Positions 1,207-60,970 of a stretch of DNA of 64,000 bases are shown piece by piece. Position 1 is the stretch's first letter. Each line of letters begins with the position of its first letter. The notes under the pieces are model-generated. The model did no database searches. It was given only the letters and a program-made list of their open reading frames with translations, and had not been told where the DNA came from. The translations under genes and the position numbers were made by a program. Source of the stretch: Amphiura filiformis (lineage: Eukaryota; Echinodermata; Ophiuroidea; Amphilepidida; Amphiuridae); NCBI RefSeq assembly GCF_039555335.1, contig NC_092628.1, forward strand, positions 68,780,706 through 68,844,705, in the 5' to 3' direction.

Positions 1207-4200
1207 GTATGTAGATCAGATCGTATCATTGTTGCCTTGGTTTTCTTTAGTAGATTGTATTCACTTGATTTTTGAACAAAGAGTGTCTGCTAGAAATAAT
1301 CTGGGTGATATAGAATCAAGTTAATTAATTAAAATTGATATTTTGGTGTCTACTATAATAAAAATTGGAAAAAACAAACTAGTTCGCATCTGACGATTCT
1401 GTCAATCAAACTCCAGCAGAGTCTGTGATTAGTTAGTATTGCGTATCTCCCCTTGCGTATCTATGGTGGGGCCTTCATTAGTTTAAAAGCTATATTAACC
1501 AATCATAGGCTGTGAGGAATTTGATTGACAGGATCATTAGAAGATGACTAGTTTCTTTCTGGGGAATATGATTGATGGGATTGTCATATGGGAACTAAGT
1601 TTCTTTAATTTTGGCTTTTATTGTAGAATTATCTGATGTGAAATAGAATCAATTAATTTAAAATAGATATTGTATTGATGAATGTATTGTAGATACATAG
1701 GTTTTGCATAAAACTTGAAACAGAAGCAGTATGGGATGGAAACAATCCATTAACAAGGTAATTAATTGCTTTGTTTCAGTTCCACGTACTGTGTTAACCT
1801 ACTCTGTCAATAGTTTAAAGACTACTGAACAGAATTAAAACAATTAATTACTTTGTTTGCAATTGTGATTGCACAAACAAGGTAATTCTCGCGATTCCAA
1901 ATACAGCGCGCCACCTACGATCACGCCTGGCTGATCTACTTCACGCAGAGCATCATGGGTAAAAGTCGACATCCATGACGCGTCGACGATGATCGACCAA
2001 GGAAACGGAAACGAGTGTTGCTATCGATTACTCCAACCACTTTTGTTTATTTACGTTGATGATGATCAGCTGTTGATTCGACGATTTTTTTTCCATTTCT
2101 GCCTCCTTTTTAAAGTTAATTTCGACAGTCATGGTTTAGGCCTACCTCTGTGAATGTTCAGAGTGTTAGGCCTATTCCCACACAAAATAATGGGCATCAA
2201 TTAAACCCTTATTTTCAAACTTTTCCGAGGCGCTTGGGAAAATACTTTAGGCTCTCGTTTACAAGAAAAGAAAACACTTTCAGGTCTTTAAGCTTTGTTG
2301 TAAAGTAGGCCTATAATAGACTTGATTTAAAAAAAATATGATTGGGGATAGGCCTACTTAGACCCTCATGCATATATCCTTTTAAAAAACAAATTTTTAA
2401 GCCTTGTTTGTTTTAAGTAAACGGTAGACCTAAATCTCAATATTTAGAATAACGAAAATTCAATACATATTTTAACAGCATGGACAGCGTAAGGCATTTT
2501 TTTTAATGTGTTATTTTTTCTGCCTCCTTTTTAAAGTTAATTTCGACAGTCATGGTTTAGGCCTACCTCTGTGAATGTTCAGAGTGTTAGGCATATTCCC
2601 ACACAAAATAATGGGCATCAATTAAACCCTTATTTTCAAACTTTTCCGAACCCGATCCGAGGCGCTTGGGAAAATACTTTAGGCTCTCGTTTACAAGAAA
2701 AGAAAACACTGAAAAATATGATTGGGGATAGGCCTACTTAGACCCTCATGCATATCCTTAAAAAAACCAATTTTTAAACCTTGTTTGTTTTAAGTAAAGT
2801 AGGCCTAATTCTCAATATTTAGAATAACGAAATATTCAATACATATTTTAACATCATGAACAGCGTAAAGCATTTTTTTTTTAAATACGATTAAAACGTT
2901 TTGAATTTCAAATGTACTCTATTCCTATTCAACCATCTACGGTTAAAACTCGATGTCAAAAATGTTGATGTCTCTGTTCTCTGATCGACCATCTAAGCCT
3001 ATAAACCCGATGTCAAAATGTCAATTTTCGAGTTTGGGTAGGCCTATAATAGCAATGCTTTTGATGCAAGACAATTTCAAATAGGAAATTTAATCTAAAA
3101 CACAAATTCGTGCCTTTTTTTTTATTTCTTGTTTGGATAACCTTTCCCATAATTATTACCATGCGTGATATATGATCAAAATAAAAGCTTTTGGTTTCCA
3201 TAAATGTTTTGAACGCTGGTCTTATTTTTATTTTTATTATTTTTTTCCTAGGCCTATAGATGTTTTACATTTATAACCTTTTTACAAACTTTAATAGATA
3301 TGAATTAATTGTTTTAAAGCATTTTCGTGTGACATTTTGAAACGCTCTTTGTAGCATGATGTAGGCCTACTGTATGATCACGAAAGGTCGTAAATTTAGA
3401 AGCCATTTCCTTCTATACCGTATTGCCCTATAAACAAAACACTTTGGCCCCAATGTATAATGTCGGGAGAAAATATATACTTGCACTATTACAAAATTAA
3501 TAAACCTGTTAATTTTTAAAATAAACTCTCGTGGTGCAATTCTGTCAACAAAATTACATAGGCTTAAGAACCGGGGGCTGGGGGCTCAGCCCCCTCAATA
3601 AGCCTACCTTTCTGTATGAATAGGCACATTTTCATTTAGGCCTATATAATGGCCTCCAAACTACATTGTTAAGCATGTTAAGTTATCTTGTTTTTGTCAA
3701 AAAACATCAACTGCAAATTGTCCCTTATTGTACAGTATATTCTTCACCGTAAATCGGTGTGTGGGGGTGTGTGGGGGGGGGGGGGTCCCGGTTCGCCCCT
3801 TCAGTCTCAAATGAATTATTAAAGGGGAAAGATGAAATAAAGATGGTATGACATGCAAGAAAGCGGAAGTAAAAATAAAATATGAAAAAGAAACATGAAT
3901 TAATATTAAAATCGGGCATGACAATTGTCAAATTTAAACCTTAATTGTGACACGATCTGGTTCATGGGGGCCAAAGGAGGCATTTTTGAAAATTGTGTTA
4001 CTGTAATTATTATACATTACACGTATAATATAGGCTATTATTTTAAACCGAAAGCACCAAAGGTCTATCTAGCATACTTGGTTCTAAAGTTAAGAAGTTG
4101 TTTCATGCATATTTTCTTGATATGCCTTAAAATAATGATCTTTTAAAATTAATGTAGGCCTACTCTTTTGCAGTTTGAAACTTTCTTCATCTTTATTATA

Positions 4201-7200
4201 ATGCTAGAACTCTATGAGGTATTGTTGAACTTAGGCATTAAAGTCTCAAATTGAAATATTAACAAAAAATAAATGTTATTTTTATGCGGTAGGCTATGCC
4301 TACAAAGTGTTTTTTATTGTGATCGTAATTTTTTATTGTTTGATTGTAGCCTTATATAATTAAAAATACAAATTTAGGCTAAAATAAAATAAGGACAAAT
4401 CAAGCAATTACAATAATAACAAAAACGGCAAACCAATGTGATGCATGTGTAACAAAATTTGGGCCGAGTAATTAAGACAAAATTAGGGTATTTTTCGCAC
4501 GGAATTTTGACGGTTAATTTAGATAACAAATTAAAGGAACTGTATGAGTGTGACTGCAGTATGATTTTAAAGAGGACTAGCCTGTGTTTAGGGAGACGTA
4601 TGCTCCGCCAATCATTAAACTTGGTCATTTTCTGTGTGGTTTGCCTGAAAAACCTTAATGATCTCATCCCGCAAAAATATAGGGCTGCTAAAGGACATGT
4701 CTTGAGCTTTCCAAATTTTCTTGTTTATTTATCTTTTCAGTATGGTGTCAAATCCATCATTTCTGCAATCATGTAAAACCCTGCATTGTTAACGATCAGC
4801 TGTTTCTTGATGTGTATTATTTTTATGTTATTATAGTGTTATGTGCCCTGAAAAGTTTTTGGTAGTATGCGCCCTTAGTGTAAATTCGTAAGGTCATCAA
4901 CTTTGGTCACTAATTAATATTATTTTGTTTGGCTGAAAGTTTTATGATTGTTTTTGGTTGAGGATCATTAAAAATATTGATCTAATTGTGTATACAACCA
5001 ATTTATTTAATTAATAGCAATCAGTAGAATTTGATTATGCATTGTTTTGTTTTGATATTTTGAAAGTTTAGTAGTTTTGTTGTTTGGATAAGTTTTGTTG
5101 TTTGGATATGTCATTTATAAGGACATGATTATGGTAGGACTTAAAAATGTTCTACAAAGTGACAACATTGCTAAATTTAGAAACATTTTATTAAGGTCAT
5201 CACCTGATCTTAGTTTATCTATTATTTTGTGTTTTTACTTCCTCATAAATGTGTTGGAAGTGACAAATGTTGTTTTCATTTTGGAAGTTTACTTGTATTG
5301 CAAATTATTTGTGTTTCTTTCCTCAAAAATGCATGAGTTGTTCCAAGTTCAGTCAAGGTTTGTTTACATCAATACCCCAGTCATGCTTTAAGACATGTGC
5401 TATCCCATAATAATGTTCTCTGCCTGGAAACTGATTATGTAATGTAAGTTGACCTTTCCACTTTCCAGTTTCATGTTTGCTCTTATTTGCATAGGTCACC
5501 CATCTCTTTAACAAGGTCAATGCCGCTCAGTGCCTATGGTTATTATACGTTTTGGTGATAATTAAATTCGTAGTAGAGATCATTATAATTAGCATAATGC
5601 TCCCTTTGTTTTTGACCTGGTATGTTTGTCAGTCTAGCTCTGGTCTCCAACATGCCAGCTCCTTGCTAGACCACCTCCACCACTTTGTAAAATAAATATA
5701 TTGTTGTCAACAAATAGCTCTGTGTCATCTGTATTATTCTTCATTTTATCACCAAGTAGTATCGTTTTATATCAACATCAGTTTTTACAATGGAGAGTTT
5801 ATTAAAGAGATTACAGCAACTGGAAAGCAAAGTTAAAGAACTGGAAAATAAACTTGTGCATCAGCAGCCTTGCAAATGCAAGAATCCAAAGACAGTGAAT
5901 GTTTCTTCGACTTCAAGTGTTTCTGCCTCACCTGATAATACACCTGTACCAATAATTGCAACAAATGTTGAGGGAACTGTGAAATGGTTTAACGTGACTA
6001 AAGGGTATAGATTTGTTACCAGAACAGACAATGCAGAAGACATTTTTATTCATAAATCAGGAATTGCTAAACCGAACCCTAGACACAAGCGTGCCAGTGT
6101 TGGACAAGGTGAAATTATTGTCTTTGACATTATCAGTGTTTCAGGAAGGACTTCAGAAGCAGTAAATATAACTGGACGTGATGGCAATTGTGTCACTGGT
6201 AGTAAATTACCCACTAAACATGCCAAAACAATTCCTCCAAATGGATCATCAGTGTGCAAAAATATACAACTCTCAATATCAAGTTCACCAGTTGAAGTTC
6301 TACATGTAAGCACTTCACCCACCCCAGCTGTAGACAAGTGTACAGGTAGGCCCATGGATTCATCACAACAACTGAATTTGGACATATCAACTCCGCCATC
6401 TGGGATGCCCATCTCCTCTCGTACTCCGTGCAATTATATTTCTTCTAAGGCAAATGACTATCATCGTGAACCTGAACCACAACGTGTATCATCAGAATCT
6501 AAAACTCTATTCGGTCTGGAGGACATTTGTTTCACGATTTCCATCTTCGCCACTATAAATATATGCCAGAGACCAGTTAATAACATGCTGAACTATAAAA
6601 TATACAGAATTCATTTTTATACTGACTTTTGACTGAAAAATCGGACTATAAATTGCTTTTATTTGTGATATGAACTTGTGATATATACTTTTGTCTTGTT
6701 TGTGGAAAGAAAAGGTTTGTTTTGTTTGTTTATCTTAATGTCTGTTCAAAATAGTTTTGCAGCTTTGAAGTGATCCAAAATTTTACTTCAGATATGACCC
6801 TGTTTACATTTTGGATTTATCTTTGTTTATTTGTCTATGTGCACGAAAATGTTTTGGTGTAAAACCACGCTAAAACTAGCCAATTTATAGAGTGCGAATA
6901 TTTGCACTGTTTATTTATTTTTATTAATATCCAGAGGGACTTAAAAATCCCGGCCCACGCCTCCTCATTTTTCGGAACCTTATTCTTTTACAAAATGGTG
7001 TCAGAAGTGGGATGAAGTTTTTTTTTGGATAGTATTGTTTTGTTGTGTGGGATGGGTTGGCAAAATGTGTAAAGTGACATTGTTTTCATCGTTTTTATAC
7101 CTTTGGAAATATGTAGAAATTTATATGCTCATTTATTATTGTGTACTGGTTGGTGCTGTTATCATTTATATTATGTCATAACACTGATCGTTAACTCTTG

Positions 7201-10200
7201 TTTTGTTTAACCCATTTTTTTTAAAGTTACATGATGTGTAGCAGCCCAAATTTTGTCCCTTTTTGGTTGGTGTCAGCGTTTTTTATGCCGGGCGGCATCG
7301 CCTTTGTGGGGGCTCTGTAACAAAATTTGGGCGAGTAATTAAGACAAAATTAGGGTATTTTTCGCACGGAATTTTGACGGTTAATTTAGATAACAAATTA
7401 AAGGAACTGTATGAGTGTGACTGCAGTATGATTTTTAAAGAGGACTAGCCTGTGTTTAGGGAGACGTATGCTCCGCCAATCATTAAACTTGGTCATTTTC
7501 TGTGTGGTTTGCCTGAAAAACCTTAATGATCTCATCCCGCAAAAATATAGGGCTGCTAAAGGACATGTCTTGAGCTTTCCAAATTTTCTTGTTTATTTAT
7601 CTTTTCGTATGGTGTCAAATCCATCATTTCTGCAATCATGTAAAACCCTGCATTGTTAACGATCAGCTGTTTCTTGATGTGTATTATTTTTATGTTATTA
7701 TAGTGTTATGTGCCCTGAAAAGTTTTTGGTAGTGTGCGCCCTTAGTGTAAATTCGTAAGGTCATCAACTTTGGTCACTAATTAATATTATTTTGTTTGGC
7801 TGAAAGTTTTATGATTGTTTTTGGTTGAGGATCATTAAAATATTGATCTAATTGTGTATACAACCAATTTATTTAATTAATAGCAATCAGTAGAATTTGA
7901 TTATGCATTGTTTTGTTTTGATATTTTGAAAGTTTAGTAGTTTTGTTGTTTGGATAAGTTTTGTTGTTTGGATATGTCATTTATAAGGACATGATTATGG
8001 TAGGACTTAAAAATGTTCTACAAAGTGACAACATTGCTAAATTTAGAAACATTTTATTAAGGTCATCACCTGATCTTAGTTTATCTATTATTTTGTGTTT
8101 TTTACTTCCTCATAAATGTGTTGGAAGTGACAAATGTTGTTTTCATTTTGGAAGTTTACTTGTATTGCAAATTATTTGTGTTTCTTTCCTCAAAAATGCA
8201 TGAGTTGTTCCAAGTTCAGTCAAGGTTTGTTTACATCAATACCCCAGTCATGCTTTAAGACATGTGCTATCCCATAATAATGTTCTCTGCCTGGAAACTG
8301 ATTATGTAATGTAAGTTGACCTTTCCACTTTCCAGTTTCATGTTTGCTCTTATTTGCATAGGTCACCCATCTCTTTAACAAGGTCAATGCCGCTCAGTGC
8401 CTATGGTTATTATACGTTTTGGTGATAATTAAATTCGTAGTAGAGATCATTATAATTAGCATAATGCTCCCTTTGTTTTTGACCTGGTATGTTTGTCAGT
8501 CTAGCTCTGGTCTCCAACATGCCAGCTCCTTGCTAGACCACCTCCACCACTTTGTAAAATAAATATATTGTTGTCAACAAATAGCTCTGTGTCATCTGTA
8601 TTATTCTTCATTTTATCACCAAGTAGTATCGTTTTATATCAACATCAGTTTTTACAATGGAGAGTTTATTAAAGAGATTACAGCAACTGGAAAGCAAAGT
8701 TAAAGAACTGGAAAATAAACTTGTGCATCAGCAGCCTTGCAAATGCAAGAATCCAAAGACAGTGAATGTTTCTTCGACTTCAAGTGTTTCTGCCTCACCT
8801 GATAATACACCTGTACCAATAATTGCAACAAATGTTGAGGGAACTGTGAAATGGTTTAACGTGACTAAAGGGTACGGATTTGTTACCAGAACAGACAATG
8901 CAGAAGACATTTTTATTCATAAATCAGGAATTGCTAAACCGAACCCTAGACACAAGCGTGCCAGTGTTGGACAAGGTGAAATTATTGTCTTTGACATTAT
9001 CAGTGTTTCAGGAAGGACTTCAGAAGCAGTAAATATAACTGGACGTGATGGCAATTGTGTCACTGGTAGTAAATTACCCACTAAACATGCCAAAACAATT
9101 CCTCCAAATGGATCATCAGTGTGCAAAAATATACAACTCTCAATATCAAGTTCACCAGTTGAAGTTCTACATGTAAGCACTTCACCCACCCCAGCTGTAG
9201 ACAAGTGTACAGGTAGGCCCATGGATTCATCACAACAACTGAATTTGGACATATCAACTCCGCCATCTGGGATGCCCATCTCCTCTCGTACTCCGTGCAA
9301 TTATATTTCTTCTAAGGCAAATGACTATCATCGTGAACCTGAACCACAACGTGTATCATCAGAATCTAAAAACTCTATTCCGGTCTGGAGGACATTTGTT
9401 TCACGATTTCCATCTTCGCCACTATAAATATATGCCAGAGACCAGTTAATAACATGCTGAACTATAAAATATACAGAATTCATTTTTATACTGACTTTTG
9501 ACTGAAAAATCGGACTATAAATTGCTTTTATTTGTGATATGAACTTGTGATATATACTTTTGTCTTGTTTGTGGAAAGAAAAGGTTTGTTTTGTTTGTTT
9601 ATCTTAATGTCTGTTCAAAATAGTTTTGCAGCTTTGAAGTGATCCAAAATTTTACTTCAGATATGACCCTGTTTACATTTTGGATTTATCTTTGTTTATT
9701 TGTCTATGTGCACGAAAATGTTTTGGTGTAAAACCACGCTAAAACTAGCCAATTTATAGAGTGCGAATATTTGCACTGTTTATTTATTTTTATTAATATC
9801 CAGAGGGACTTAAAAATCCCGGCCCACGCCTCCTCATTTTTCGGAACCTTATTCTTTTACACATGTTTATAAGTAATGAGACATTAAGAATCTTTTTCAA
9901 ATTTACTTTCCCTTCGTGCAAAAAAACCCCATTTCTAGAAAATGTAGGCCGATTACAAAAACGCAACACCTATGGATGTTCTTAAGTATGCTGGTGTTAT
10001 ATTATTATCGTATTAAACAAACAATAAATTCAGAAAGAATTAAAACAATTTATTCTAATAATAACCAAAATAAAACCTATGCGTTTTCCATTAAAAAAGG
10101 ACAGGCCTAGGCCTACTTCGCATTGACTAGGCTCGCGCGTATCGGGCTGAAAAGCATTGTAAAGTTTAAAAACAAAAAAAAGGCGGTTTTAGAAAATGTA

Positions 10201-13200
10201 TAACAAAAAGGAAACACCTAGTATCAACATCAAGTTTGCGGGTTTTAGAAAAGGACATCTGTGAATATCAAACTGCAATATTTCACTTCAACACAGAAAT
10301 ATTTTTCAAAAAGTACTATAAAACATTGTGTTTTTAGAGTAATAATCACAAACATGGTCAGCTATGCATATGGTTGATGAAAAAGGATGTCGACCCCAGA
10401 CACGGGAAATGCCAATTTTCACTGCTGTCGTTGGTGGCGCGCTGTATTTGGAATCGCGTCAATTGCTTGCTTTCTCTGTTCTGAATGTTATTGTGTCAAG
10501 TAGTTTAAAACCAAAATGTAAAAGTAACATTTGTTATAAATTGAAAGAAATGGTTTCCCCCAAATTGGATAACTACAGCAGAGTTGGTTCTGCAATAGGC
10601 ACATTATTTTTACATCTGTTGGTCTGGAGTTTTATAATAAGGTTATTGAAAATGAAAAGACCAATGTAGTATTGATCATTACTTGTGATTGTGAATTCAA
10701 TACAGATACGACAAGAGCCAAGCCATGAGTACAGGTTCCTTGTTGTCTTCAGCATCCCGCAGACTTCTCAAGGAATTTGGGCTTCGTTTTGGAGTGGTAA
10801 GTGATTCCATATGTGTTCAGGGTTTATGTTGAAATATTAAACTTTTTCATCAGGATTTCATTGTTAGTGGAAAGATTGAGTTCATAAGGGAAATCTACTG
10901 ACAAACTTACTGTTTCTCCAGACACAATTCATCAGATATCCAGTACCTAAAGTGCCTTTCTTTGGATTCATTGTGTCATTGCCTTTCTGAAAATATATGG
11001 TCATTTTCACAGTAAAGGGTGTAACTTTTGATTTTTAGGGTCAAAATTTCAAACCACTTAAATATGTTTCTGTTTACTGAAATCATGCATAGGAGCAACT
11101 TAAATTCCAGTAAAATAATGTTTCAAGGCTTAAACCTTTTGATTTCTAATAAAAAATTTGACATTTCCATAACATTTTGGTTAAAATCTAAGAAAAAATG
11201 TATTTTACATAAGCTCAGAAAATTATGACATGAAAGCTGGAATACATGTGAAATCCCATTCCAAAGTAAGTCAACAGATATAAGTTACATTTTATACCAT
11301 GTTTTGCTATGTTTGTAATTGCAGTTTTGAAAATTTTAACATAAAGTGTCATTTACAATGAAAATTTCCCAACCTTAAACATATTTTTTAAGTTTTAATT
11401 GGGTTCCTAAAATAATTTGAATGTCTAACTTCATGTACAAATACTACTTGATAAAAGGAACCTCCCAGCCAAGTTTCACAGAAATTGGAGTTATATTTTA
11501 GAATTGGCAATTAAAGCGATTTGTGTTTCGGAGGCTTCAGTTAACAACACAGGTGATCATAAAAGTAAAATATTTGGCTAACTACTGCAAGATGACATGA
11601 AAAAATAGGTAAAAAATATCACAATTACCAATTTTCATGCTTTGCTTCTAAGTATTGAATTTTAGTTGTGACAAAAATTAAATTATCACAGCAAGTCATT
11701 TTTTTGTTTCGGAGGCTTCATGTTAACAATGGCTAAACACTGCAGAAGTAGTTTTTTTGAAAACAACACTGTTGGGATCATCTAAGCTGTTATTTTCTTG
11801 TGTGTATTGAATCAATGATTCTATGTGGCAGATATTGTAGATTTATAGCATGTTAACTTTTTCACCCATTTGTTTAGTATGGTGTTTTTTGCATGTGAAG
11901 CCTCCGAAACAGGCTTTTTGGGTATCAGTATATTTTTCAAACATTAACCATAACATCAACATTTTTTTAAATTTATGACATTCTGCACATATCAAGTAAC
12001 AATTACAATGCAGATATCAGTATGAAACACCAATTTAGATATGCATAGATGATAATTAATCTTATTGTTGTTTCGGAGGCTTCATTTGTTTCGGAGGCTT
12101 CAATTGTTAACGGAAAGTTTGTATTGGGTCCCATTTTCAAACGGTGATATATATCTCCACGATTTAAAAACAAGTGACTTGAGGATCTACTTTGCTACAT
12201 TTTGAAAAATAGATTGGATGAGCTCTTTTATTTATATTTGCCCAAGCTTGCTGAACAGTTTGTTTCGGAGGCTTCAAAAAAGTTAACGGAAAATCGGCTC
12301 TTTGAAGTCAAGATTTTATAAAAATTTTAAAAGCTTGCAAATCGACTAAGTTTTGTTACCCATTTCAAGTTAAGATATCAACTGTTATGAATCAAGAAGA
12401 AGTGAAGAAATAACCAAGAATTATGAACCAAAGCTATACCCACAAAGTTTGTTAACAATTGTTAACGGAAAATGAAGCCTCCGAAACGACAAATATCGAA
12501 GTCCGGTTCTCAAAAATACAGGGCTGTTCACAATTAAATCTAATGTGGCTGTGTTTACTGAACATATGACCATACTTTCAGGATAAAAACAATTATCCAT
12601 GAACTAGCTGAAGAAAACACAGGGTTTTACAAAAATGTTACTGTTTTTTATAGTTTTTCAAAATGGCAATATTAAGTACATTTAAGCCTGCTAAAACTGA
12701 ATGCAGTAACTCCCAAAGATGATTATGCTACCCAAGATAGCTGCTAACTAGATGACTTATGTGGCCAAAAATCATGGAATTCTGTGGCTTTATTAGAACA
12801 CTACGGATCAAAATGTTAAAAATCCAAAGTTACACCCTTTACCGTGAAAATGACCATATACTTTTATATATTATTATACTATTATCGTTATGTTTAGATA
12901 TACAATAAAAATCAATATCTAAATTACTGTCTCAAGGAAGGCACACCGTCTGTATAGTACAATAGACTTTTTGTCCATCTTTCAATACAGGGCGAGTTAT
13001 ATCGAAGAATTGCGTACTTGGTCTACCTTGCTGAAAAAGAGTAAGTGTATGAGGTTAATAATGATTAAATGCAGGCTGATTTGATGACACTTCCTCATGT
13101 GAATTTACATGTTCAAGGTGACAGATCAAATGTGATGAGATCAGATTCACTTATTCTATGATCAGCTCAGAAAACTAATAGACGGGACTCATAACATTGT

Positions 13201-22200: not shown

Positions 22201-25200
22201 TCTCTATTTAGAAAGTAGACATGCCCAAATGAATACCCTATTATAATATGATACTTTTATTAACTTGTCACAGATGGCATCCCCTGATGAAGCTGGCGAT
22301 GCTCCACACAGACAACAAGAAGTGGAAATTGAAGCAGAGATTCACAGACAGCCACTGCCTTCACCTAGTACTAACATGCAAAGTCAAGCACCAGTTTTGG
22401 AAACCAATCCAAGTGAATTACTGGCACAAGATGAAGAACAACAGAAAGCTATGCTGAAGGAAGAACTTCTCCATGGAAGGAAAACCAAATTAAATCGGAC
22501 TTCATCTGCTCCAGATCTGACATGGATTGGACAAGAAAGCAGTATAGATAAAAGTTGCCAGGCTTCATCAAATACAAAGTTGACTCGGTCAGATAGTGCA
22601 CAAACAACATCCACAGATGAAAGCTTACAAGTAACAACATCTGCAGATGAGAGCTTACAAGTAATTGCTCGTCCGAGTAGACCCAATGTACATACATTCA
22701 CCAGCAGTGGAGATTCAGGTTTTGGAAGGGACAGATACAGCTCACAGGAAGATTTTGATCAAGATACTATGCTGACAGAATCAGGAGATAAAACTTTAGC
22801 ACAAAGAAGCTTGCATGGCAGGAGAACATTAAGAGACACTGAACAAAAGGAGCATTGTGATATTGCTGATAATGTAGGCATTTGTGAGCAAGTAGATAAT
22901 GAAGATGAAATCGGGGCCAAATATGAGATGAATAATAACAGTAAAGATACATCTCTTGAGAGTAAAGATGCATCTCTTGAGAACACAACCATAGATGATG
23001 AGCAATGTATAGGACTAGATTCATCCAGTGGCAAAAACCAAAGTATATCATGTGATTTGACACATGATGTGTCACCTGATGTTCTTTCAGATTTAAAGGA
23101 AAACAAACAGATGGACATTTCAAACAGTCATCCAGAAATTGTATCAACTGTAGCACCTGTTGTGGAAAATGAAATTTGTGATCAACAGGAGTCTAATGAA
23201 ACAAAACATACTATGGATTATGGAAAAACAAAACAGAACATTGATGTCACGCAAACCGAGGGCTTACAAATCAATTCTGAAATTGACAAAAAACAAAGTA
23301 CTACTGACCATTTCAAATCCATTCCAGCAAGTGAAGAACCTGTGAGTTGGTTAGACAGAGAACTGTTACGCACTGGAATATCTCCTATTAATGACGATGA
23401 CATTGCTATTAGTAAAATAGAAGAGGATATTACCCCAGTTCATGAATCCAAGACGGAATCGGTGGTACCTGAGATATGTCAAGATAAAGTCTTAGATGAT
23501 AAATCTGCAAGCCAAATTACAGGAGAATATCTGTCATGTCCTGATGCAGCTAATACCAGCAACTCTGTAGAGTGTCAAACTGATGAAGTATCTACTGATA
23601 CTTGTAAACTATTGGGTGTAAAAGAAGTTACGCCTCATGTCCATTCATCAACAGTAAATGCAGCTGATTCACCATTGAAAACAATTGTAGAAGAAGGGAG
23701 TACAATGCCAAGTGATCAAGAGACTGAAACAAGAACTGAACTTAAAAGCACATCCCCTCCAGCATTTTCAAATTCACTTCGCCATGCAGCTTCAGATTTA
23801 TCATCGCACATTCCAAGTACTGGGGCATTTTTAAGTGACCAAGTTTTGCAGAGTCCCGCTGTCAGACCTAAATATTACCCACAAAGACATTCAATACCAG
23901 GCCCTCAACATCACATGCCTAGAATTGATGGCACTGCCCAACCTCAGCAGCCTACTACCTCACTGTGCATCACCCCGTCCTCACATTCCACACCTATTCA
24001 ACACCAACGCTTTCACTCAACAACTCAAAGTCTTGAAGACAGTATCACAGCCAGTCTGGTGATGTCAGACCAGTCTGAAGAGGAAGAGCATCCGTATCTT
24101 GCAGTGTCCTGTAGTATAGTTGATGTCCTTGTCATGGTACAGCAGATGGTGTCATTCGTCTCGGAGCTTTGTCTTATTCTTTGCCCACTACCAGGGATGT
24201 CACAGGATACACAGGATATGGATGTGCCAGGACCACTGGGAGAGGCATATAGTGTGGTGGTGTGTCGAGATAGAGCTAGGAGAATGAGAGGAGAATTGCT
24301 GAACAGTATCACACAGGTAAGGTGGTAGTATTAAAGTAATTTAAAAATACCTAAGAGGAAGAAGGGTCCAACTCAAGGTTCAACTCCATGGAGTTCAGCC
24401 TTTTTTTCATGGAAACCATGATTAAGTGTTCTTGGAAGACTATTTAGAGAGTGGATTTGAGCTCTTCTTTCACACACAAGGAAGGACTGTCTGCTAGCAA
24501 TAAAATGCTGGGTCTAACTCATTTTTGTAAAATGGGAGAGTTGGACCCTTCTTCCACTTAGGTATTCAATTGAATCAGGGTTGTCAGTACAGTGCTCCAC
24601 TCTTTTGCTTTGTTGTCTACATTGGTTCGCTTTAAGTTCGGTAGTGACATCAATGTTTTTTAGCAGTTGCACTGACAAACAGCCCATATACGCTCTGCGT
24701 GATTAACTTTATTTGCAATGATACTGCATACTTCACTACCAAACTTGAGGCAAATCAAAATATAGAGCAATGTGTGCTTGAGTACTAGTCTAATCAATTT
24801 GCTCTTGTGAAAATAACACATGACATTCTAGTGGACAAATGCTTTTGTACTGTTTGTTCCAATTTACCTTTATGAAAACTCTGGAAGTTTATCCTTACCA
24901 CAGTTAAATAAATGTCCTACCTCAGTGTTATATGACATGAACCCTCCTATAACCAAACCCTCATATAACCATTGGAAGTGTTGACAGTGTATGTAGTTTT
25001 AGTCATTTTACAAGTGTATTTATCATCTGTTGATGTTTGTATTTCAGACTATGGCAAATACAATGGGATTATATGTACAGAATATCCTGGCAATAGATGC
25101 ATGTGCCACTCCACATGAAGATGCTACTAGACTTCTGTCAAGACAGGTGAGATAAAGGACATGATTGCTTGAGTCAACTAGTGGTATCAAAACATTAATC

Positions 25201-31200: not shown

Positions 31201-32976
31201 GCAATTTGTCTTTCTTTTTTCCCCATTAACAGAGAGCTGATGTTGAAAGTAAAACAGACCCATTGGCAGGTGGTCTTACTAAAGTGATGTCAAGGGAAAA
31301 GCTGTATAAGATGTTCCATGAATTGCACAAGAAACGCAAGTGTTTCACTGGCTTGTGTCTAATAGAATGGATTCAGGACAACTGCATTGATCAAGGTCAG
31401 ATTACACTCATTTAGTCGCACAATATTTTATATGGTATGCTTGTTTTTCTTCTTGCATCTTGACCATGAGAAATTGAGTTTCAAAGTGTCTTCCATGCAC
31501 ACACAGTGATCTGATGAGACCAAAAATATTTGCAACATATGATAATGCCATTTATGCCAGAATTTAAGCTATGTCCATGCAATGATTAGTGTTAGGTGGA
31601 TAATCCATCATAATCATCATAAGTAACTCATCATAAAGCTACTAGCAGTCTGAACCTAACATTACTTTTCTATGAGTTCTTGTTATCAATTTAAGTTTCC
31701 TTGTGAATCCAACCCATCATAAGTTATGATGTGTTTATGATGTGTCGGAAGTGTTAGTGAAATTCTCCTTTAATTTTGTTAACAATCCTAATATTATTTT
31801 GATACTACAGATGAAGTTGTTGTGAACAGTCATGAGCAGGCAGCAGACATTGCAGAGAAACTTCTTGATATTGGAGTGATAAGCCCTGTTACAAGAACAG
31901 GAGACACACCACTTATTAAGCCAGGTAAAGAACACATATGGAGTAATGATATTCAGTAGTCAAATCAGGGTGGAAATCAAAAACAGGTACAGTCATGGGT
32001 AAGTTTATTTTCACGCTTGTAAAGTATCAAATGTGCCCACCCATGGGTGATTAACAGTTTTGATTGGTTGGAGTAATGTGAAAGTTGGGCCAATAGTTTT
32101 GTAGTGGAAAATGTCAATTTAAAATTACCGATCAGACTGGCTCATGTCAAACTGTTATGTACAGACTTGTCTTAGGATCAGAGGTGGAAATTATGGCATT
32201 TGGTATAACCCAGTTCTTTTGATAATAGATCGGATGAGCTCTGTGGTGTGGACTGTAGGATGAGGCAAGTTGTAAAGCATGTTAAATGACAGGAAATTTA
32301 GTAAGAGAATTTTTTTTTTGCATTTTTGCAAAATTTTTAATTATCTTAGAAACTTATGTTACAATGATATTTTACCATTTTGTATGCATTTTATTTTTCT
32401 GTAGGTGACTATTACCCCAGCAGTCGATCCCACTCAAACAGTCAGTCTGAGGGTGGCACAGATGTGGAATTCCCACCTGTAACACTGCATAGTGTTACCA
32501 ACAGTGGCTACTGGCTTGGTTCCGACACCTCTGACACAGAAGCATACAGGACCAGTTCCCATCATGCAGCATCTCATGTGAATAGAGCCACTCCATATTC
32601 CTCACCTGTGGAAACCATTTCAAGAAGTAGCTCGGTATCCAGTGTGTGCATCTTCCGTCCGGACAGCAGACACTTTTATTGTTTCACTGACATTGATGAT
32701 GAGGTATTTTATGGGATTGATACACGAGTCATATCACCAACTCCATCTACATCTGTGGATACAGAAAGTTCGCATTTGCGTAGTTTCTATGATGACAAGC
32801 ATCTGAAAATGATGTCAGTAGCACCAGAGTTTGTTTTGGGAATCATCTATGCAAGAAGAAAGAAGAACCAAGAGGCTGCAAAATATGTGCACGGTCTACC
32901 TGCCAGTGTTGTGTCAGGTGTGGAGAAGTCATTGCCATCATTTTGGTTTTGTCTCTCAGCCTGTAATGATACATGA
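1037..32976 (+). CDS. Large DEP-domain gene, 5'-truncated by the window, 24 visible exons
   Basis: Exons joined by eye: 1037-1206, 10706-10796, 12991-13040, 15578-15686, 16116-16212, 16445-16545, 18058-18150, 18779-18852, 19992-20091, 20510-20598, 21152-21257, 21695-21871, 22274-24316, 25048-25146, 25864-26004, 26335-26407, 27727-27845, 28126-28311, 28951-29038, 29577-29642, 30111-30191, 31233-31395, 31811-31924, 32405-32976. Every border has AG before and GT after, and all phases fit, giving 1,665 codons plus stop if a 4-bp duplication in the 28951 exon is discounted. Visible residues 1-419 are mostly helical, 420-1040 low-complexity Ser/Thr/Asp/Glu, 1041-1383 helical again, about 1395-1475 a DEP domain, and the tail is Ser-rich. 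There is no signal peptide or membrane segment, so an intracellular scaffold or trafficking role is a guess. I do not recognise the family firmly; some spacing recalls CCDC142-like proteins, but this is weak. The N-terminus lies upstream of the window. Confidence 0.85.
1377..1553. mobile_element. MITE, family also present at 45421-45612
   Basis: The ends are inverted (AAACTAGTT...ATTCTGTCAATCAAACTCC against GAGGAATTTGATTGACAGG...GACTAGTTT). An internal AACCAATCA/TGATTGGTTAGTA pair is shared with the copy at 45421. Confidence 0.75.
1890..1915. repeat. CpG-rich 26-bp segment, inverted copy at 10433-10458
   Basis: CGCGATTCCAAATACAGCGC plus GCCACC recurs in reverse at 10433-10458, and GTCGACATCC-like sequence follows on the inner side of both copies. 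The patch is CpG-rich in an otherwise CpG-poor intron. The two copies may be ends of a large element or two oppositely oriented members of one family. Confidence 0.6.
2098..2882. repeat. Tandem duplication of about 400 bp
   Basis: Copy 1 (2098-2507) and copy 2 (2518-2882) both begin TGCCTCCTTTTTAAAGTTAA and share most of their length, ending near ACAGCGTAA-GCATTTTTT. Copy 2 lacks a stretch after AAAACACT and has a CCCGATCCGA insertion. Rich in TAGGCCTA words. Confidence 0.85.
2883..4443. other. Intron 1 sequence, no gene
   Basis: AT-rich with TAGGCCTA words, a GGGGGCTCAGCCCCC hairpin near 3575 and a poly-G run at about 3773-3785. The small reading frames show no domain. Confidence 0.5.
4448..6992 (+). 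repeat. 5' LTR of the cold-shock-domain element
   Basis: Starts TGTAAC, ends TTTTACA. It contains the reading frame at 5790-6632 and an AATAAA-containing stretch near 5692, 100 bp before that frame. Small differences from the other LTR include ggccgag versus ggcgag near the start and single-base length changes in homopolymers. Confidence 0.9.
5790..6632 (+). CDS. Y-box-type cold-shock-domain ORF in the 5' LTR (variant copy)
   Basis: A 280-codon frame. Residues 1-25 form a Leu/Lys/Glu heptad coiled coil (LLKRLQQLESKVKELENKL), then a CKC motif, a Ser/Thr linker and a cold-shock domain at 61-140. Compared with the 3' copy, RNP1 reads KGYRFV instead of KGYGFV (G74R), and single-base differences near 6503 and 6513 replace the last residues with an unrelated 40-residue tail. 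The Gly-to-Arg change hits the nucleic-acid-binding strand, so this copy may be impaired. Confidence 0.75.
   Translation: MESLLKRLQQLESKVKELENKLVHQQPCKCKNPKTVNVSSTSSVSASPDNTPVPIIATNVEGTVKWFNVTKGYRFVTRTDNAEDIFIHKSGIAKPNPRHKRASVGQGEIIVFDIISVSGRTSEAVNITGRDGNCVTGSKLPTKHAKTIPPNGSSVCKNIQLSISSSPVEVLHVSTSPTPAVDKCTGRPMDSSQQLNLDISTPPSGMPISSRTPCNYISSKANDYHREPEPQRVSSESKTLFGLEDICFTISIFATINICQRPVNNMLNYKIYRIHFYTDF
6993..7315 (+). other. Interior of the LTR element, no coding sequence
   Basis: It holds the primer-binding site, T-rich sequence and, just before the 3' LTR, a short G-rich purine stretch that may act as the polypurine tract. A second partial PBS-like word (GGTTGGTGTCAGCG) occurs near 7265. No frame of note lies wholly inside it. 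Confidence 0.8.
6996..7013 (+). promoter_or_regulatory. Primer-binding site complementary to tRNA-Leu(CAA)
   Basis: TGGTGTCAGAAGTGGGAT begins three bases after the 5' LTR. Its reverse complement, ATCCCACTTCTGACACCA, is the T-arm/acceptor end of animal tRNA-Leu(CAA) with CCA. Leu primers are used by some Ty3/gypsy elements (established); lineage assignment here is not possible without the pol region. Confidence 0.88.
7316..9861 (+). repeat. 3' LTR of the cold-shock-domain element
   Basis: Nearly identical partner of the 5' LTR, followed by the CATG target duplication. Its cold-shock reading frame (8657-9427) keeps all consensus residues. Confidence 0.9.
8657..9427 (+). CDS. Y-box-type cold-shock-domain ORF in the 3' LTR (intact copy)
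   Basis: A 256-codon frame: coiled coil 1-25, CKC at 28-30, linker, then a cold-shock domain with GTVKWFNV, RNP1 KGYGFV, RNP2 DIFIH, NPR and SVGQGE, and EAVNITG-DG after it. The NPR...SVG-GE and EA-N-TG features place it with animal Y-box (YBX) proteins rather than LIN28 or bacterial Csp. It lacks the YBX basic/aromatic islands; the tail is Ser/Thr/Pro-rich. Cold-shock domains bind single-stranded RNA or DNA; a role in packaging or regulating element RNA is inference. There are no introns, as expected for a gene carried through RNA. Confidence 0.82.
   Translation: MESLLKRLQQLESKVKELENKLVHQQPCKCKNPKTVNVSSTSSVSASPDNTPVPIIATNVEGTVKWFNVTKGYGFVTRTDNAEDIFIHKSGIAKPNPRHKRASVGQGEIIVFDIISVSGRTSEAVNITGRDGNCVTGSKLPTKHAKTIPPNGSSVCKNIQLSISSSPVEVLHVSTSPTPAVDKCTGRPMDSSQQLNLDISTPPSGMPISSRTPCNYISSKANDYHREPEPQRVSSESKNSIPVWRTFVSRFPSSPL
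9866..10705. other. Intron 1 sequence between the LTR element and exon 2
   Basis: Contains two related stretches around TCTAGAAAATGTA / TTTAGAAAATGTA (9937 and 10190) and the inverted CpG-rich segment. No coding exon seen. Confidence 0.5.
10706..10796 (+). CDS. Exon 2 of the large gene
   Basis: The acceptor is ttcaatacag and the donor gtaagt; 91 nt, ending in phase 0. It encodes YDKSQAMSTGSLLSSAS followed by RRLLKEFGLRFGV. If exon 1 were not used, the Met codon at 10725 is the first in-frame start after a TGA and could serve as an alternative translation start. The exon lies just downstream of the repeat-rich part of intron 1. Confidence 0.8.
10998..12855. mobile_element. Non-autonomous DNA element with seven internal 15-bp motifs
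   Basis: Terminal inverted repeats of about 40 bp: TGGTCATTTTCACAGTAAAG and GGTGTAACTTTTGATTTTTA on the left, the near-complement on the right, flanked by TATA. Inside, GTTTCGGAGGCTTCA occurs at 11524, 11706, 12070, 12088 and 12262, and inverted at 11896 and 12473, often next to GTTAAC. No transposase frame. Regular motif copies of this kind resemble transposase-binding sites. Confidence 0.78.
12991..18852 (+). CDS. Exons 3-8 of the large gene (N-terminal helical region)
   Basis: Exons 12991-13040, 15578-15686, 16116-16212, 16445-16545, 18058-18150 and 18779-18852. Recognisable stretches are GELYRRIAYLVYLAEK, EGLYVEHVCKQLAGLRDLL, ILCETLTKLHTLCGDWLQR, KKETPVEDYMQQYIQ and IRDEVTRCTQCYNEVF. They are amphipathic and Leu-rich, as in alpha-helical scaffold or tethering proteins, with no catalytic motif. 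The phases are 0/2, 2/0, 0/0, 0/1, 1/0, 0/0 and 0/2. The introns carry MITEs at 15097-15311, 17523-17948 and 18329-18540. Confidence 0.82.
13467..13685. repeat. Short tandem repeat, about 89-93 bp, 2.4 copies
   Basis: AAGGTCCGCACA begins copies at 13467, 13556 and 13649; each continues through TTTGTCCTA-TGATAAATG and, in the first two, GAGTACTTGCTTGGGA. Located in the intron after exon 3. Confidence 0.85.
15097..15311. mobile_element. MITE, palindromic
   Basis: GAGAGTAACGCCATGTTGGA near 15109 is matched inverted by TCCAACATGGTGTTACTCTC near 15280, and the homology extends about 60 bp on each side. Central part unpaired. Confidence 0.75.
17523..17948. mobile_element. MITE with perfect 38-bp terminal inverted repeats
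   Basis: 17523-17560 (GTGACGTGTCATGTCAAAAG...) and 17911-17948 are exact reverse complements. ATTT flanks both sides. The interior contains no protein signature. It sits in the intron before exon 7. Confidence 0.88.
18329..18540. mobile_element. MITE-like inverted repeat
   Basis: GCTACAGGTAAATTAAG-type ends pair across the segment (CAACTACAGGTAAATTAAGA on the left, CTTAATTTACCTGTAGCG on the right). CpG-containing interior. Confidence 0.65.
18898..19460. other. Intronic stretch with short inverted repeats
   Basis: A CpG-rich 120-bp patch begins near 18910 (GGTTTACTTCAGTAAACC palindrome at 18968). Near 19375-19435 TCATTTCAAGTG pairs with CACTTGAAATGA. No coding sequence recognised. Confidence 0.45.
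19992..21871 (+). CDS. Exons 9-12 of the large gene
   Basis: Exons 19992-20091 (FNLDVGELAIVTLYDLLMVD), 20510-20598 (DLGHIDQDLLALAYRLSQL, then a Trp), 21152-21257 (AQQWRQPLMEQTRLWLHHL) and 21695-21871 (Pro/Ser/Gln-rich, ending PQQ). All keep the frame. The region changes here from helical to disordered. The intron after exon 9 opens with a (CTGT)n microsatellite. Confidence 0.84.
20107..20150 (+). repeat. (CTGT)n / (CTGC)n microsatellite
   Basis: TCTG repeated about seven times followed by CCTG units, directly after the donor of exon 9. Confidence 0.9.
22274..24316 (+). CDS. Exon 13: 681-codon, mainly disordered exon
   Basis: One 2,043-nt exon, acceptor cttgtcacag, donor gtaaggt. It is far longer than the other exons (50-190 nt apart from the last). 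The first 600 residues are rich in Ser, Thr, Asp, Glu and Gln with no fold expected. They contain SSAPDLTWIG and SGDSGFGRDRYSSQEDF, which look like short docking or phosphorylation segments, and two short internal duplications (DESLQV twice; SKD-SLE-type twice). After residue 600 an ordered part begins near HPYLAVSCSIVDVLVMVQQM and goes on into exon 14. Such exons typically evolve fast. Confidence 0.9.
24348..24565. mobile_element. MITE, family also at 40083-40675
   Basis: TACCTAAGAGGAAGAAGGGT on the left, complement ACCCTTCTTCCACTTAGGTA on the right. The interior includes a CTCCATGGAG palindrome and CACACAAGGA, shared with the copy at 40480-40675. Confidence 0.8.
25048..28311 (+). CDS. Exons 14-18 of the large gene (second helical region)
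   Basis: Exons 25048-25146, 25864-26004, 26335-26407, 27727-27845 and 28126-28311. They encode TMANTMGLYVQNILAID; a segment with several Cys and charged residues ending FLCDRFEPITQE; VRINNTWCLSCLVPHFQG; DLPFDLTPHSDPEYIATVM; and LFLAQGLEVLMSNEMPGCC followed by two Trp-containing helices. Phases agree throughout. The PEY-plus-helix stretch is the part that faintly recalls CCDC142-like proteins. A TTAA-flanked element (27117-27600) sits in the intron before the 27727 exon. Confidence 0.84.
26165..26215. other. Strong hairpin pair in the intron before exon 16
   Basis: ATATAAAGGAGACTTT is followed after two bases by its complement AAAGTCTCCTTTATAT; right after it GATCTTTT pairs with AAAAGATC. Likely a small foldback element; no RNA family recognised. 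Confidence 0.6.
27117..27600. mobile_element. TTAA-flanked palindromic DNA element
   Basis: TTAA at 27113-27116 and at 27601-27604. The ends AGGAAGGTGACCTGAT and ATCAGGTTACCCT are approximate inverses; the core 27325-27540 is a long imperfect palindrome (CTCATAAACATATTGAAATT with its complement). TTAA duplication is the hallmark of piggyBac-type transposition, but no transposase is present, so this is a non-autonomous candidate. Confidence 0.65.
28951..29038 (+). CDS. Exon 19 with an apparent 4-bp frameshifting duplication
   Basis: Acceptor ttctgaatag, donor gtatgt. The frame opens as NFESQVQRLVR, then hits TAG at 28984-28986. At 28982-28989 the bases GGTAGGTA are a tandem 4-mer. With one copy discounted the frame stays open to the donor and enters the next exon in the right phase. 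The shifted part is Leu/Gln-rich like its neighbours. This is either a consensus error or a true loss-of-function allele. Using the internal gtaggt as a donor fails, because the following exon would then read into TGA. Confidence 0.72.
29577..30191 (+). CDS. Exons 20-21 of the large gene
   Basis: Exons 29577-29642 (HLIEYLHNAGQGLGIDDLVE) and 30111-30191 (EAVLQLLQLFTLQTKRLIQL, then HKKLFKE). Both start and end in phase 0. They form Leu-heptad-like helices immediately before the DEP domain. Splice sites are tttttcag/gtaagt and atttacag/gtatgt. Confidence 0.85.
31233..31924 (+). CDS. Exons 22-23: DEP domain of the large gene
   Basis: Exons 31233-31395 and 31811-31924. The motif KCFTGLCLIEWIQDN fits the DEP signature (F-x-G-x-x-x-x-x-W-[LI]), and SHEQAADIAEKLLDIGVIS fits its second and third helices (A...L...G-[LIV]-I). 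DEP domains are roughly 80-residue winged-helix folds that usually bind membranes or GPCR/Wnt pathway partners. The domain covers about residues 1395-1475 of the visible protein and is split by a phase-1 intron, with a Gly/Asp codon across the border. Confidence 0.85.
32405..32976 (+). CDS. Last coding exon 24, ending inside a tandem repeat
   Basis: Acceptor tttttctgtag; the first two bases complete a Gly codon. It encodes GDYYPSSRSHSNSQSEGG, then Ser/Thr-rich sequence with several RSSS-type sites, a conserved-looking stretch (VCIFRPDSRHFYCFTDIDDE) and YDDKHLKMMSV. The last 32 residues, from KYVHGLPASVV to NDT, are encoded by the first unit of the 111-bp array starting near 32881. The C-terminus may therefore be native, with the repeat grown from it, or a late acquisition. 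Confidence 0.85.
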
Positions 32977-34470
32977 TTCACTCATTTGGTATAATATGTG
33001 CACGGTCTACCTGCCAGTGTTGTGTCAGGTGTGGAGAAGTCATTGCCATCATTTTGGTTTTGTCTCTCAGCCTGTAATGATACATGATTCACTCATTTGG
33101 TATAATATGTGCACGGTCTACCTGCCAGTGTTGTGTCAGGTGTGGAGAAGGCATTGCCAGCATTTTGGTTTTGTCTCTCGGCCTGTCAGGGCAGCGAAAA
33201 ATAATTTCCTTTCTGGGAACGTGAACTGTTGTTTGAAATATTTTCTGCGAGCGTGGAGCCGGAGCGCGAGTATGAACACAATTATTAAACAGGTGGGGTC
33301 CAGGGGCAAAGCCCCAGCGCCGTCTTAGAATTNATTTGCGCGAAGCGCACAAAAACTGGCACTTTTTGTTTTAAAATGACCAAATATGGGGTTAATTTTG
33401 GTTAGAAACCCATATACAGGCGTCAATTTTGTGGGGATGATTGTATGGACCATCCCCTAACAATATATTGGGGGGATTTATGCCCCCTCCCACCCCGGAT
33501 CTACCCCTATGTCATTAGCTGAAAATGACTGTTTGGAGTTATTACTCATTGGAGTCATAGTGTTACACCCAAATTGTAAAGTGCGCACATTTTGTTGATT
33601 TGTAGCTTGAGATTACAAAATTGAATACTTAACATTCGTAAGTGCATGAGCGTGCAAAATTTTGGAATGTACATGCCTTCTTGTACATTTTACTCCGAAT
33701 TTTACCCTCGAATTTTTTGATCCCCTCTATTAAGGACTGAATTTTTTTTGATCCCCCCTTTTTAGGACCCAAAATCCTAGTTGTTGAACATTAATTTAGT
33801 TCCAAAGATGTGAACAGTTGAAGTTTTTCCAAAACAATATGCAACAAAAAAAATAATTTCCCTTGGCAAATTAATGAAAAACCTGCTTTTCTGGGGAACG
33901 AATCCTACTTATGCTATATTCATTCCTGTCACTGGCGTTTAGTTTTATTTATCAGTTATCGTCGCAGAAAGTTCGCAGAAAATATTTCACGAGTGATCGT
34001 GTTCACAGGAATATTTTCAGAGCTTCAGAAAATGATATTAAAGATTATTTTTCCCGTCTTGATTTTTTTCTGCGACTCTGAATTTTTTTCTGGGAACGCC
34101 GGTACCACGATACCGGTGATTTCATAGCCCTGCGGCCTGTAATGATACATGATTCACTCATTTGGTATAATATGTGCACGGTCTACCTGCCAGTGTTGTG
34201 TCAGGTGTGGAGAAGGCATTGCCAGCATTTTGGTTTTGTCTCTCAGCCTGTAATGATACATGATTCACTCATTTGGTATAATATGTGCACGGTCTACCTG
34301 CCAGTGTTGTGGAGAAGTCATTGCCATCATTTTGGTTTTGTCTCTCAGCCTGTAATGATACATGATTCACTCATTTGGTATAATATGTGCACGGTCTACC
34401 TGCCAGTGTTGTGGAGAAGGCATTGCCAGCATTTTGGTTTTGTCTCTCAGCCTGTAATGATACATGAGGA
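32881..34470 (+). repeat. 111-bp tandem array (six units) over the large gene's stop codon
   Basis: TGTGCACGGTCTACCTGCCA starts units at 32886, 32997, 33108, 34173, 34284 and 34386 (steps of 111, 111, [insertion], 111, 102). Unit 3 is split by a hAT-like element. Unit 5 has a 9-bp deletion. Two unit types alternate (AGTCATTGCCATC and AGGCATTGCCAGC). Because 111 is a multiple of three, a second frame stays open through all units and gives a 37-residue periodic frame, probably untranslated. The gene's own frame ends at TGA in unit 1. Confidence 0.93.
33187..34132. mobile_element. hAT-like non-autonomous element with 8-bp target duplication
   Basis: Begins CAGGGC and ends GCCCTG. CGGCCTGT occurs on both sides (33179-33186 and 34133-34140), exactly where array unit 3 is interrupted. 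GGGAACG and its surroundings recur subterminally near both ends (TTTCTGGGAACG at about 33210 and 34088). There is no transposase frame; one unresolved base (N) lies at 33333. The 8-bp duplication and CAGGG ends fit the hAT superfamily. Confidence 0.88.
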
Positions 34471-34632
34471 ATCACCCGTTTAATATAATAATGTGAATTT
34501 CAGTACTTGTGTGTTTTGTCTTGGGAATCTTGAAGTTTGGTGAAATCTTCAAACCACAGATTGCCAAAGTCCTGCACAGATTGTTAAAGTCCTGCAGGAT
34601 TAAGCACAATGTACTAATTGTTCCAGGAATAC

Positions 34633-34880: not shown

Positions 34881-35310
34881 GGAGAGCGTGGCGCAATGGT
34901 AACTTAGGGTACTTGCCTTTAGTGCATGAGGTCCCGGGTTCGATTCCCGGCGGTGGTGATTTGCTGGGATATTGACTTGGAAAAAAAAAGTCTGAAATTA
35001 ATTAGCAACTTCAGTAGATTAAATTCAGACTTCCGCTCTCCCCATGGTTCATTTAGAATTGGGTAAATGAATCATAAAAGTACTCCGTCCTTAGGAGGGG
35101 ACGTTAAGCCGTCGGTCCCGTGTACAGAGAGCCATACCTGTACATGTATCTCGCAGCCAGTTTCGAAAAGAGTAGGGTGTTAACCCCTGACTGTTCCCAA
35201 CCCGTCCCGGTGTTCAAATGGACCCCAATGGAAATAAGCTTCAATAGAGGCTTTCTTGGGTTATCAGGGTTGTCAAAACCTGAACAAATCAAATCAAAAA
35301 CCCCCGTGAC
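34881..35310 (+). mobile_element. tRNA-derived SINE
   Basis: The head (34881-34957) has A box TGGCGCAATGGT and B box GGTTCGATTCC; no proper acceptor stem and a degenerate anticodon region, so not a functional tRNA. The body contains GGAGGGGACGTTAAGCCGTC and GGTCCCGTGTA, a block I associate with conserved SINE bodies in marine invertebrates (memory, not checked). It ends near CAAATCAAATCAAA, a plausible tail. Confidence 0.8.
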
Positions 35311-40082: not shown

Positions 40083-40675
40083 TACCTGAGAGGAAGAAGG
40101 GCCCAACTCCATCAAAACTGTTTTTGAGATATTAAGAAAAAACTTAATATTTGGAAAAGTTTTATAGACAGAATGTTTTCGTCTTCGGGGGACCTTTAAT
40201 ACATTAACATACAATATTACGTACATTCGAAATTATATATGATTTCTCCATGGCAATGGTACAGGTCTTAATACAAGCTTGAGTTGGGCCCTTCTTCTAC
40301 TAATATACTGCAAGTGCCAGTTCCGTAAGCAGATGTGTTATAAATAGCTACAGAAATTTGATAATTATCCATTAATTGCACAAGTAGAAACATGTAATAT
40401 GTTAGCAAGAAAGTTTATTGTAATGAAAAGCAGATTTCATGGATGAACAAAATTCCTCTTGAACCCAATATTTTTGGAAGAAGGGCCCAACTCCATGGAG
40501 TTAGCCTTTCTTCCATGAAAACCATGATTTTAAAAGTGTATGTGGAAGACTATTTAGAGAGTGGATTTTGGCTCATCTTTCACACACAAGGAAGAACAGT
40601 CTGCTGGCAATAATATGCTGGGTCTAACTCACTTTTGTAATAAATTGGAGTCGGGCCCTTCTTCCACTCAGGTAT
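40083..40675. mobile_element. Composite of two MITEs of the 24348 family
   Basis: The outer ends TACCTGAGAGGAAGAAGG and CTTCTTCCACTCAGGTA pair. A second copy starts inside at about 40480 (GAAGAAGGGCCCAACTCCAT) and matches 24361-24565 closely, suggesting insertion of one copy into or next to another. Confidence 0.75.
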
Positions 40676-41145
40676 TCAATTGTTTGCCTTCAAATTTTGA
40701 CATTTGTCCCTTGTATGGAAAGAATGGGTACAACGGTCAGTGTAATTAATATGTATTGACAATCGAATATTGAAACAGTATGTCCAACTTGCAGAATCTG
40801 AAAATGTATATTCAACTTGCTGCATATAGATCTAGGCATATTCTTATTGACTATTAAAGCAGCTGATGTATGTTTGTAAAGGCTGATGCATGTCATCTGA
40901 ATAGGCAAAAACTGTCTTGTGCAAGCGTGATGAGACTGTAATTATTAAAAATGGCATAATGGGGTAAATTGGTGAAGGGGACAGTACCATGATTATGTTA
41001 TTATTCAGATCAAAGAATGAACCACTGTCATTGCATTCTTCGATGAATTTTAGGCAGCTTTTTCGCTACATCCGTAGCCATGACTGAATACTAGAAGTAA
41101 ATGTGCAACACTTGATTACAACTGAGACTGCTATAGGAATTCACT

Positions 41146-45420: not shown

Positions 45421-45612
45421 AAACTAATTCATGTCTGATAATCCTGTCTATCAAATTCCCCACTGCCTATGATTGGTTAGTATCGCGTAACTAATGCAGG
45501 CACTGCCCTAGTATTGCGTAGCTAACAAAGGCACCGCTCTAATTATTCATCACTAACCAATCACAGGCTGTGCTGGAGTTGGATTGACAGAATCATCAGA
45601 CACAAACTAGTT
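45421..45612. mobile_element. MITE, second copy of the 1377 family
   Basis: AAACTAATTCATGTCTGATA...TGTCTATCAAATTCC on the left and GGATTGACAGAATCATCAGA...AAACTAGTTT on the right; same internal TGATTGGTTAGTA/TCACTAACCAATCA pair as at 1430-1510. Confidence 0.75.

Positions 45613-50803: not shown

Positions 50804-60970
<10,167 letters not shown>

Follow-up and report, generated by a model that had tools for sequence, protein, structure and literature searches.

A young, non-autonomous LTR retrotransposon of Amphiura filiformis with a Y-box-type cold-shock-domain frame in its long terminal repeats

We analyzed a stretch of 64,000 nucleotides from Amphiura filiformis (assembly GCF_039555335.1, contig NC_092628.1, positions 68,780,706 to 68,844,705 of the forward strand), referred to as the window. 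Positions 4448-9861 are a long terminal repeat (LTR) retrotransposon insertion, and each of its LTRs contains a frame with a cold-shock domain. The chances are, in our judgment, slightly better than even that this young, non-autonomous element has its sole gene inside its LTRs and that the gene encodes an RNA-binding protein serving the RNA of the element. A preliminary description of the same DNA had proposed a non-autonomous LTR element with a captured Y-box domain. The LTR retrotransposon, its lack of autonomy, and a genuine Y-box-type frame in each LTR all held up.

Anatomy and age of the element

The element measures 5414 bp as a whole and contains the following features, numbered by their positions in the window.

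4444-4447, no strand: target site duplication, left copy, CATG
4448-6992, plus strand: 5' LTR, TG...CA, 2545 bp
5631-5712, plus strand: R region proposed for the 5' LTR, with putative limits; TCAGTC resembling an initiator at 5629, with its A at 5631; AATAAA at 5691, followed by GT-rich sequence
5790-6632, plus strand: cold-shock-domain frame of the 5' LTR, 280 aa; Arg replaces Gly in KGYGFV and the C-terminus is altered
6993-7315, plus strand: internal domain, 323 bp, with no open reading frame (ORF) of at least 80 aa
6996-7013, plus strand: primer-binding site, three bases in from the LTR
7244-7332, plus strand: perfect 13-nt inverted repeat (arms 7244-7256 and 7320-7332) enclosing the G-run together with the first bases of the 3' LTR
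7306-7312, plus strand: G-rich candidate for the plus-strand primer, GTGGGGG
7316-9861, plus strand: 3' LTR, 2546 bp
8498-8579, plus strand: R region proposed for the 3' LTR, with putative limits; initiator-like TCAGTC at 8496, with its A at 8498, and AATAAA at 8558
8657-9427, plus strand: cold-shock-domain frame of the 3' LTR, 256 aa; helix at residues 2-23, Y-box-type domain at about 55-140, 116-residue tail
9862-9865, no strand: target site duplication, right copy, CATG

The LTR hallmarks claimed in the preliminary description (TG...CA ends, CATG duplication, primer site three bases in, and G-rich stretch) were borne out at exact coordinates. The LTR starts with TGTAAC and ends with TTTACA, and the 4-bp CATG flanks agree with the 4-6 bp target duplication of LTR retrotransposons. 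The internal domain opens with AAA, followed at 6996-7013 by the 18-nt TGGTGTCAGAAGTGGGAT, which would fit the 3' end of tRNA-Leu(CAA). GTGGGGG is a weak candidate for a polypurine tract, interrupted by a single T and ending three bases 5' of the second LTR.

When aligned end to end, the two LTRs were 99.6% identical. They differed at 10 aligned places, made up of 7 single-base indels, 1 isolated substitution, and 1 adjacent substitution pair of the type that CpG decay leaves. Some of the indels may be assembly errors because 6 of the 7 are length changes of a single-base run, two of them merely CC/C. Since the LTRs differ by so few substitutions and indels, the insertion is young. No ORF in the internal domain reaches 80 aa, and the gag and pol proteins, enzymes included, must therefore be supplied by another element. 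Lacking the gag and pol of an autonomous LTR retrotransposon, the element is non-autonomous.

A 13-nt inverted-repeat pair as close as the one around the G-run was found in 2 of 200 Markov sequences, and the arms of the repeat in the element pair in the predicted fold. A specially structured internal domain was rejected, as the fold energy was ordinary (z -0.90, with 13 of 100 shuffles equally good). An RNA gene within the element was also rejected; the lone Rfam match in 4448-7330 was far under its gathering score.

The cold-shock-domain frame

The preliminary description reported, for each LTR, an intronless frame with a coiled coil and a YBX-like domain. The domain was present in both LTRs, and a helix was predicted for the 3' LTR protein. 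The 256-aa protein of the 3' LTR matched the Pfam cold-shock domain with 53.7 bits (cut-off 27, E 1.9e-14). The top eight matches in a PDB search were YBX1 and YBX2 (87.6 to 78.4 bits), followed by a nucleic acid binding protein at 46.3 bits, and LIN28 reached 24.9 at best. Identity over the cold-shock domain was 52% to YBX1 and 49% to YBX2, compared to 34% to LIN28A and 34-36% to a pair of bacterial Csp proteins, all three sequences being entered by hand. For four proteins taken from the database, the values were 31-39%. The stretch NPR...SVG.GE is common to the frame and YBX and occurs in no non-YBX row of the alignment. NCBIfam and PHROGs returned cold-shock families only, besides one weak row, at 20.7 bits against a cut-off of 82, for a model of the retron Se72 effector. 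The domain is real and, as judged from bit scores and identities, nearest to that of animal Y-box proteins.

The W, F, F, and H of the motifs KWFN, GYGFV, and DIFIH, which have a role in RNA binding, are retained in the 3' LTR copy. In an AlphaFold model built with a 9-row alignment, part of the domain was confident, with block means of 91-95 over residues 61-90, and the helix at residues 2-23 was fairly so, with block means of 83 and 81. The 116-residue tail is 41% Ser/Thr/Pro, with 12 Lys and Arg and 8 Asp and Glu, and has no predicted fold. YBX proteins have C-terminal basic/acidic repeats. A tail of that type is absent here, and no relative was detected for either the N-terminal helix or the tail rich in Ser, Thr, and Pro.

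The start context of the 3' LTR frame is strong (ACAATGG). In 500 Markov LTRs (first-order, LTR composition), the longest ATG frame was 179 aa, with a mean of 75. GC content at the three codon positions of the 256-aa frame was 0.46, 0.47, and 0.27. This contrast of 0.198 was higher than that of 345 of 355 equal-length slices from positions 10000-64000, and the 10 slices that reached it all overlap the exon-like ORF at 22247-24328. Within the 3' LTR, all 7 slices upstream of the frame stayed below it, with a maximum of 0.109. Because such contrast is rare among slices, the frame has a genuine coding signature, and it apparently is truly protein-coding.

Searching a protein database with the whole frame gave 8 matches among 549 candidates; they resemble the query at the cold-shock domain, and their best local alignments span 11-32% of it. 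None of 35 candidates was related when residues 128-256 were the query, nor was any of 3 candidates for residues 1-60. Among viral contigs, 7 of 11 stretches were confirmed with the protein query, and the LTR start as query had no match. Bacterial and archaeal genome contigs yielded at least 594 stretches, of which 587 were confirmed and 80 kept. Every one of these 80 and of the 7 viral matches overlaps the cold-shock domain, and the few that extend past it do so at low identity.

Expression, role, and origin of the frame

Sixty nucleotides downstream of the A in TCAGTC lies an AATAAA, and a GT-rich stretch comes next. This layout suggests an R region of about 82 nt. The frame would then belong to U5 and be the first ORF of the RNA, preceded by a leader of about 160 nt that contains 1 upstream ATG. 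Alternatively, the same element could carry the frame in U3, with a start near 9836/6967, and express it through a spliced RNA or from an LTR promoter of its own, like Sag of mouse mammary tumor virus (MMTV). A TTAAAA at 9810 is 26 nt ahead of the A in TCATTT (9834), and the MMTV Sag protein is encoded in the U3 of the LTR, where a second promoter is usable, according to PMC9412291. However, the LTR has no AATAAA or ATTAAA beyond the one at 8714, which is over 1.1 kb short of that end, and an RNA starting at the LTR end would, unless spliced, have a leader of about 1690 nt with 41 ATGs before the frame. We regard the U3 arrangement as rather unlikely; these signals favor U5 over U3, and the frame probably lies in U5.

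In our proposal, transcription would most likely begin near 5631 and the frame would be the first ORF of the element RNA. Translation from the leader would yield the helix, the diverged Y-box cold-shock domain, and the tail. The protein would coat or chaperone the element RNA in the cytoplasm, to the benefit of mobility, and that RNA would be reverse-transcribed and integrated by enzymes from an autonomous LTR element not seen here. Tentatively, such an element could represent a new non-autonomous class in which the LTR is the gene, with a promoter in U3/R and a protein from U5, derived from a Y-box protein and perhaps captured from its mRNA, that keeps the RNA protected and chaperoned up to the point where reverse transcriptase and integrase from another element take it over.

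Several observations weigh against this proposal. Only a single insertion is at hand, and no further copy of the element was found in the 64-kb window. If the U5 model holds, the 5' LTR copy would be the translated one, yet one of its motif residues is changed and its C-terminus is altered, either in reality or through an assembly error. Loose-initiator matches number 10 in the LTR, 3 of them TCAGT, and such motifs are frequent by chance. A second AATAAA inside the frame (8714) could shorten the RNA. The AlphaFold model had a mean predicted local distance difference test score of 56.8, so that the whole fold is of low confidence, and the model is not confident outside the helix and residues 61-90. 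CATC, which we take to be a YB-1-type motif, occurred 18 times in the sense strand compared to a Markov expectation of 9.5, and three related motifs were also raised against this null alone. However, 34 of 212 counts from other slices of the window reached 18; special binding sites are therefore unsupported, and the enrichment was rejected as a sign of self-binding.

The frame may also be a passenger. In this case, a processed mRNA of Y-box type, or a piece of such a gene, would have inserted into an LTR and spread by hitch-hiking, useless to the element. The altered 5' copy and the single insertion are consistent with this, and the LTRs of Helenus and Ajax carry host-derived sequence unlikely to encode a functional product (PMC10886601). 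The domain alone stayed open in 15% of neutral simulations. In contrast, all 256 codons are open here despite a domain just 52% identical to YBX1, and only 1 of 1000 neutral simulations kept them free of stops when the full divergence from YBX1 was placed on this branch; this number assumes that the divergence arose inside the element, and at a quarter of the divergence 119 of 1000 remained open. Sites common to YBX1 and the two bacterial Csp proteins (sequences entered by hand) were kept more often than the others (18 of 26 vs 26 of 59, one-sided p = 0.028). We lean towards selection on the frame from these indirect tests, while the domain may have diverged before capture, and we regard the passenger explanation as possible but doubtful. 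No exact repeat of at least 11 nt closely brackets the frame, and no A-run longer than 5 occurs within 173 nt past the stop; a nested insertion of a processed gene is therefore not visible and was rejected. A host gene segment of 2.5 kb that was duplicated locally, with no transposon involved, would account for two direct copies and for the absence of a third from the window. It is highly improbable given the TG...CA ends, the CATG flanks, the primer-binding site three bases in, and the G-run before the second copy, and the one-off segmental duplication that the preliminary description had raised against itself is disfavored by the first three of these.

Other sequences of the window and described elements

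The exon-like ORF at 22247-24328 on the plus strand is an open frame of 693 codons whose codon-position signal is strong. It is apparently a large exon and has no Pfam or PDB match. Pfam searches of 10 ORFs elsewhere in the window gave nothing above a family cut-off, with weak matches for one repetitive ORF, and a PDB search with the longest of these ORFs gave no match. Tandem arrays are present at 51291-53962 (a 91-bp unit repeated about 29 times, with 95% matches) and at 32882-33186 (111-bp units) and 34135-34495 (102-bp units), the latter two having pieces up to 99% alike. The array at 32882-33186 begins within an exon-like frame at 32368-32976. Inverted repeats of 48 nt at 10990-11037 and 12817-12864, 94% complementary and 1.8 kb apart, are possible ends of a DNA transposon; no target duplication beside them was clear by eye. 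Positions 34893-34958 on the plus strand are tRNA-like by Rfam (31.3 bits, cut-off 29), ARAGORN makes no call there, and the sequence is perhaps the head of a short interspersed element. Dispersed repeat pairs were found at 24381-24572 and 40488-40682 (86% identity), 1354-1558 and 45417-45636 (73%), and 3942-4065 and 56472-56593 (76%).

The preliminary description knew of no described element with a cold-shock domain in its LTR. A limited search of the open-access full-text literature found none with a cold-shock domain or Y-box, although Repbase and subscription papers may hold one. LTR-encoded proteins as such are known, as with MMTV Sag, which is not known to be a cold-shock protein. The likeness to Sag/Naf of MMTV lies in a coding frame within the LTR, so that each insertion has two copies of it, and in a possible promoter of its own; the MMTV frame is in U3 of a full retrovirus, whereas an RNA-binding domain, probably in U5, is found here in an element without gag or pol (PMC9412291). 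Non-autonomous elements that bear small-RNA-gene sequence in the LTR are also known (PMC10886601). As described in that source, Cassandra, Helenus, and Ajax resemble our element in having a short internal domain, a primer-binding site, and LTR sequence derived from host genes; they have a polypurine tract where our element has a weak candidate, and animal Helenus also has 4-bp target duplications. They differ in that their sequence is derived from tRNA or 5S genes and in their length of 311-1263 bp, compared to 5.4 kb and a protein frame here. No tRNA or 5S Rfam match fell in the element, at gathering scores over the whole window or at E up to 1 over 4448-7330. Terminal-repeat retrotransposons in miniature (TRIMs) are defined as under about 1 kb, with terminal repeats of 100-250 bp (PMC6934838). 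With 5414 bp and LTRs of 2.5 kb, our element is outside TRIMs by size, and by content it is outside the TRIMs that bear RNA genes.

Large retrotransposon derivatives (LARDs) are similar in having multi-kb LTRs and no gag-pol. LARDs have a long internal domain, whereas that of our element is just 323 bp. Maize Bs1 is likewise an LTR element with a captured ORF, and its captured pieces sit in the element body. Retrosat2 has an extra ORF in an LTR element with long LTRs; this ORF0, however, precedes the gag-pol ORF, and the element is autonomous, as described in PMC3485330. Host Y-box proteins have been placed with retroelement RNA, as YBX1 is reported to occur with LINE-1 ribonucleoproteins (PMC3475670) and YB-1 in Staufen1-HIV-1 ribonucleoproteins (PMC3486646). 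Excerpts of PMC11453091 and PMC12803021 mention cold-shock genes and LTR elements separately, CSDE1 appears in a list in PMC4441479, and YB-1 is unmentioned in the excerpts of PMC5035971.

Non-autonomous LTR elements are usually viewed as empty parasites. If our proposal is true, such elements can provide part of their own ribonucleoprotein, and they would allow a direct test of Y-box protein function for retroelement RNA. Each solo LTR would then be a ready-made intronless Y-box gene open to recruitment by the host.

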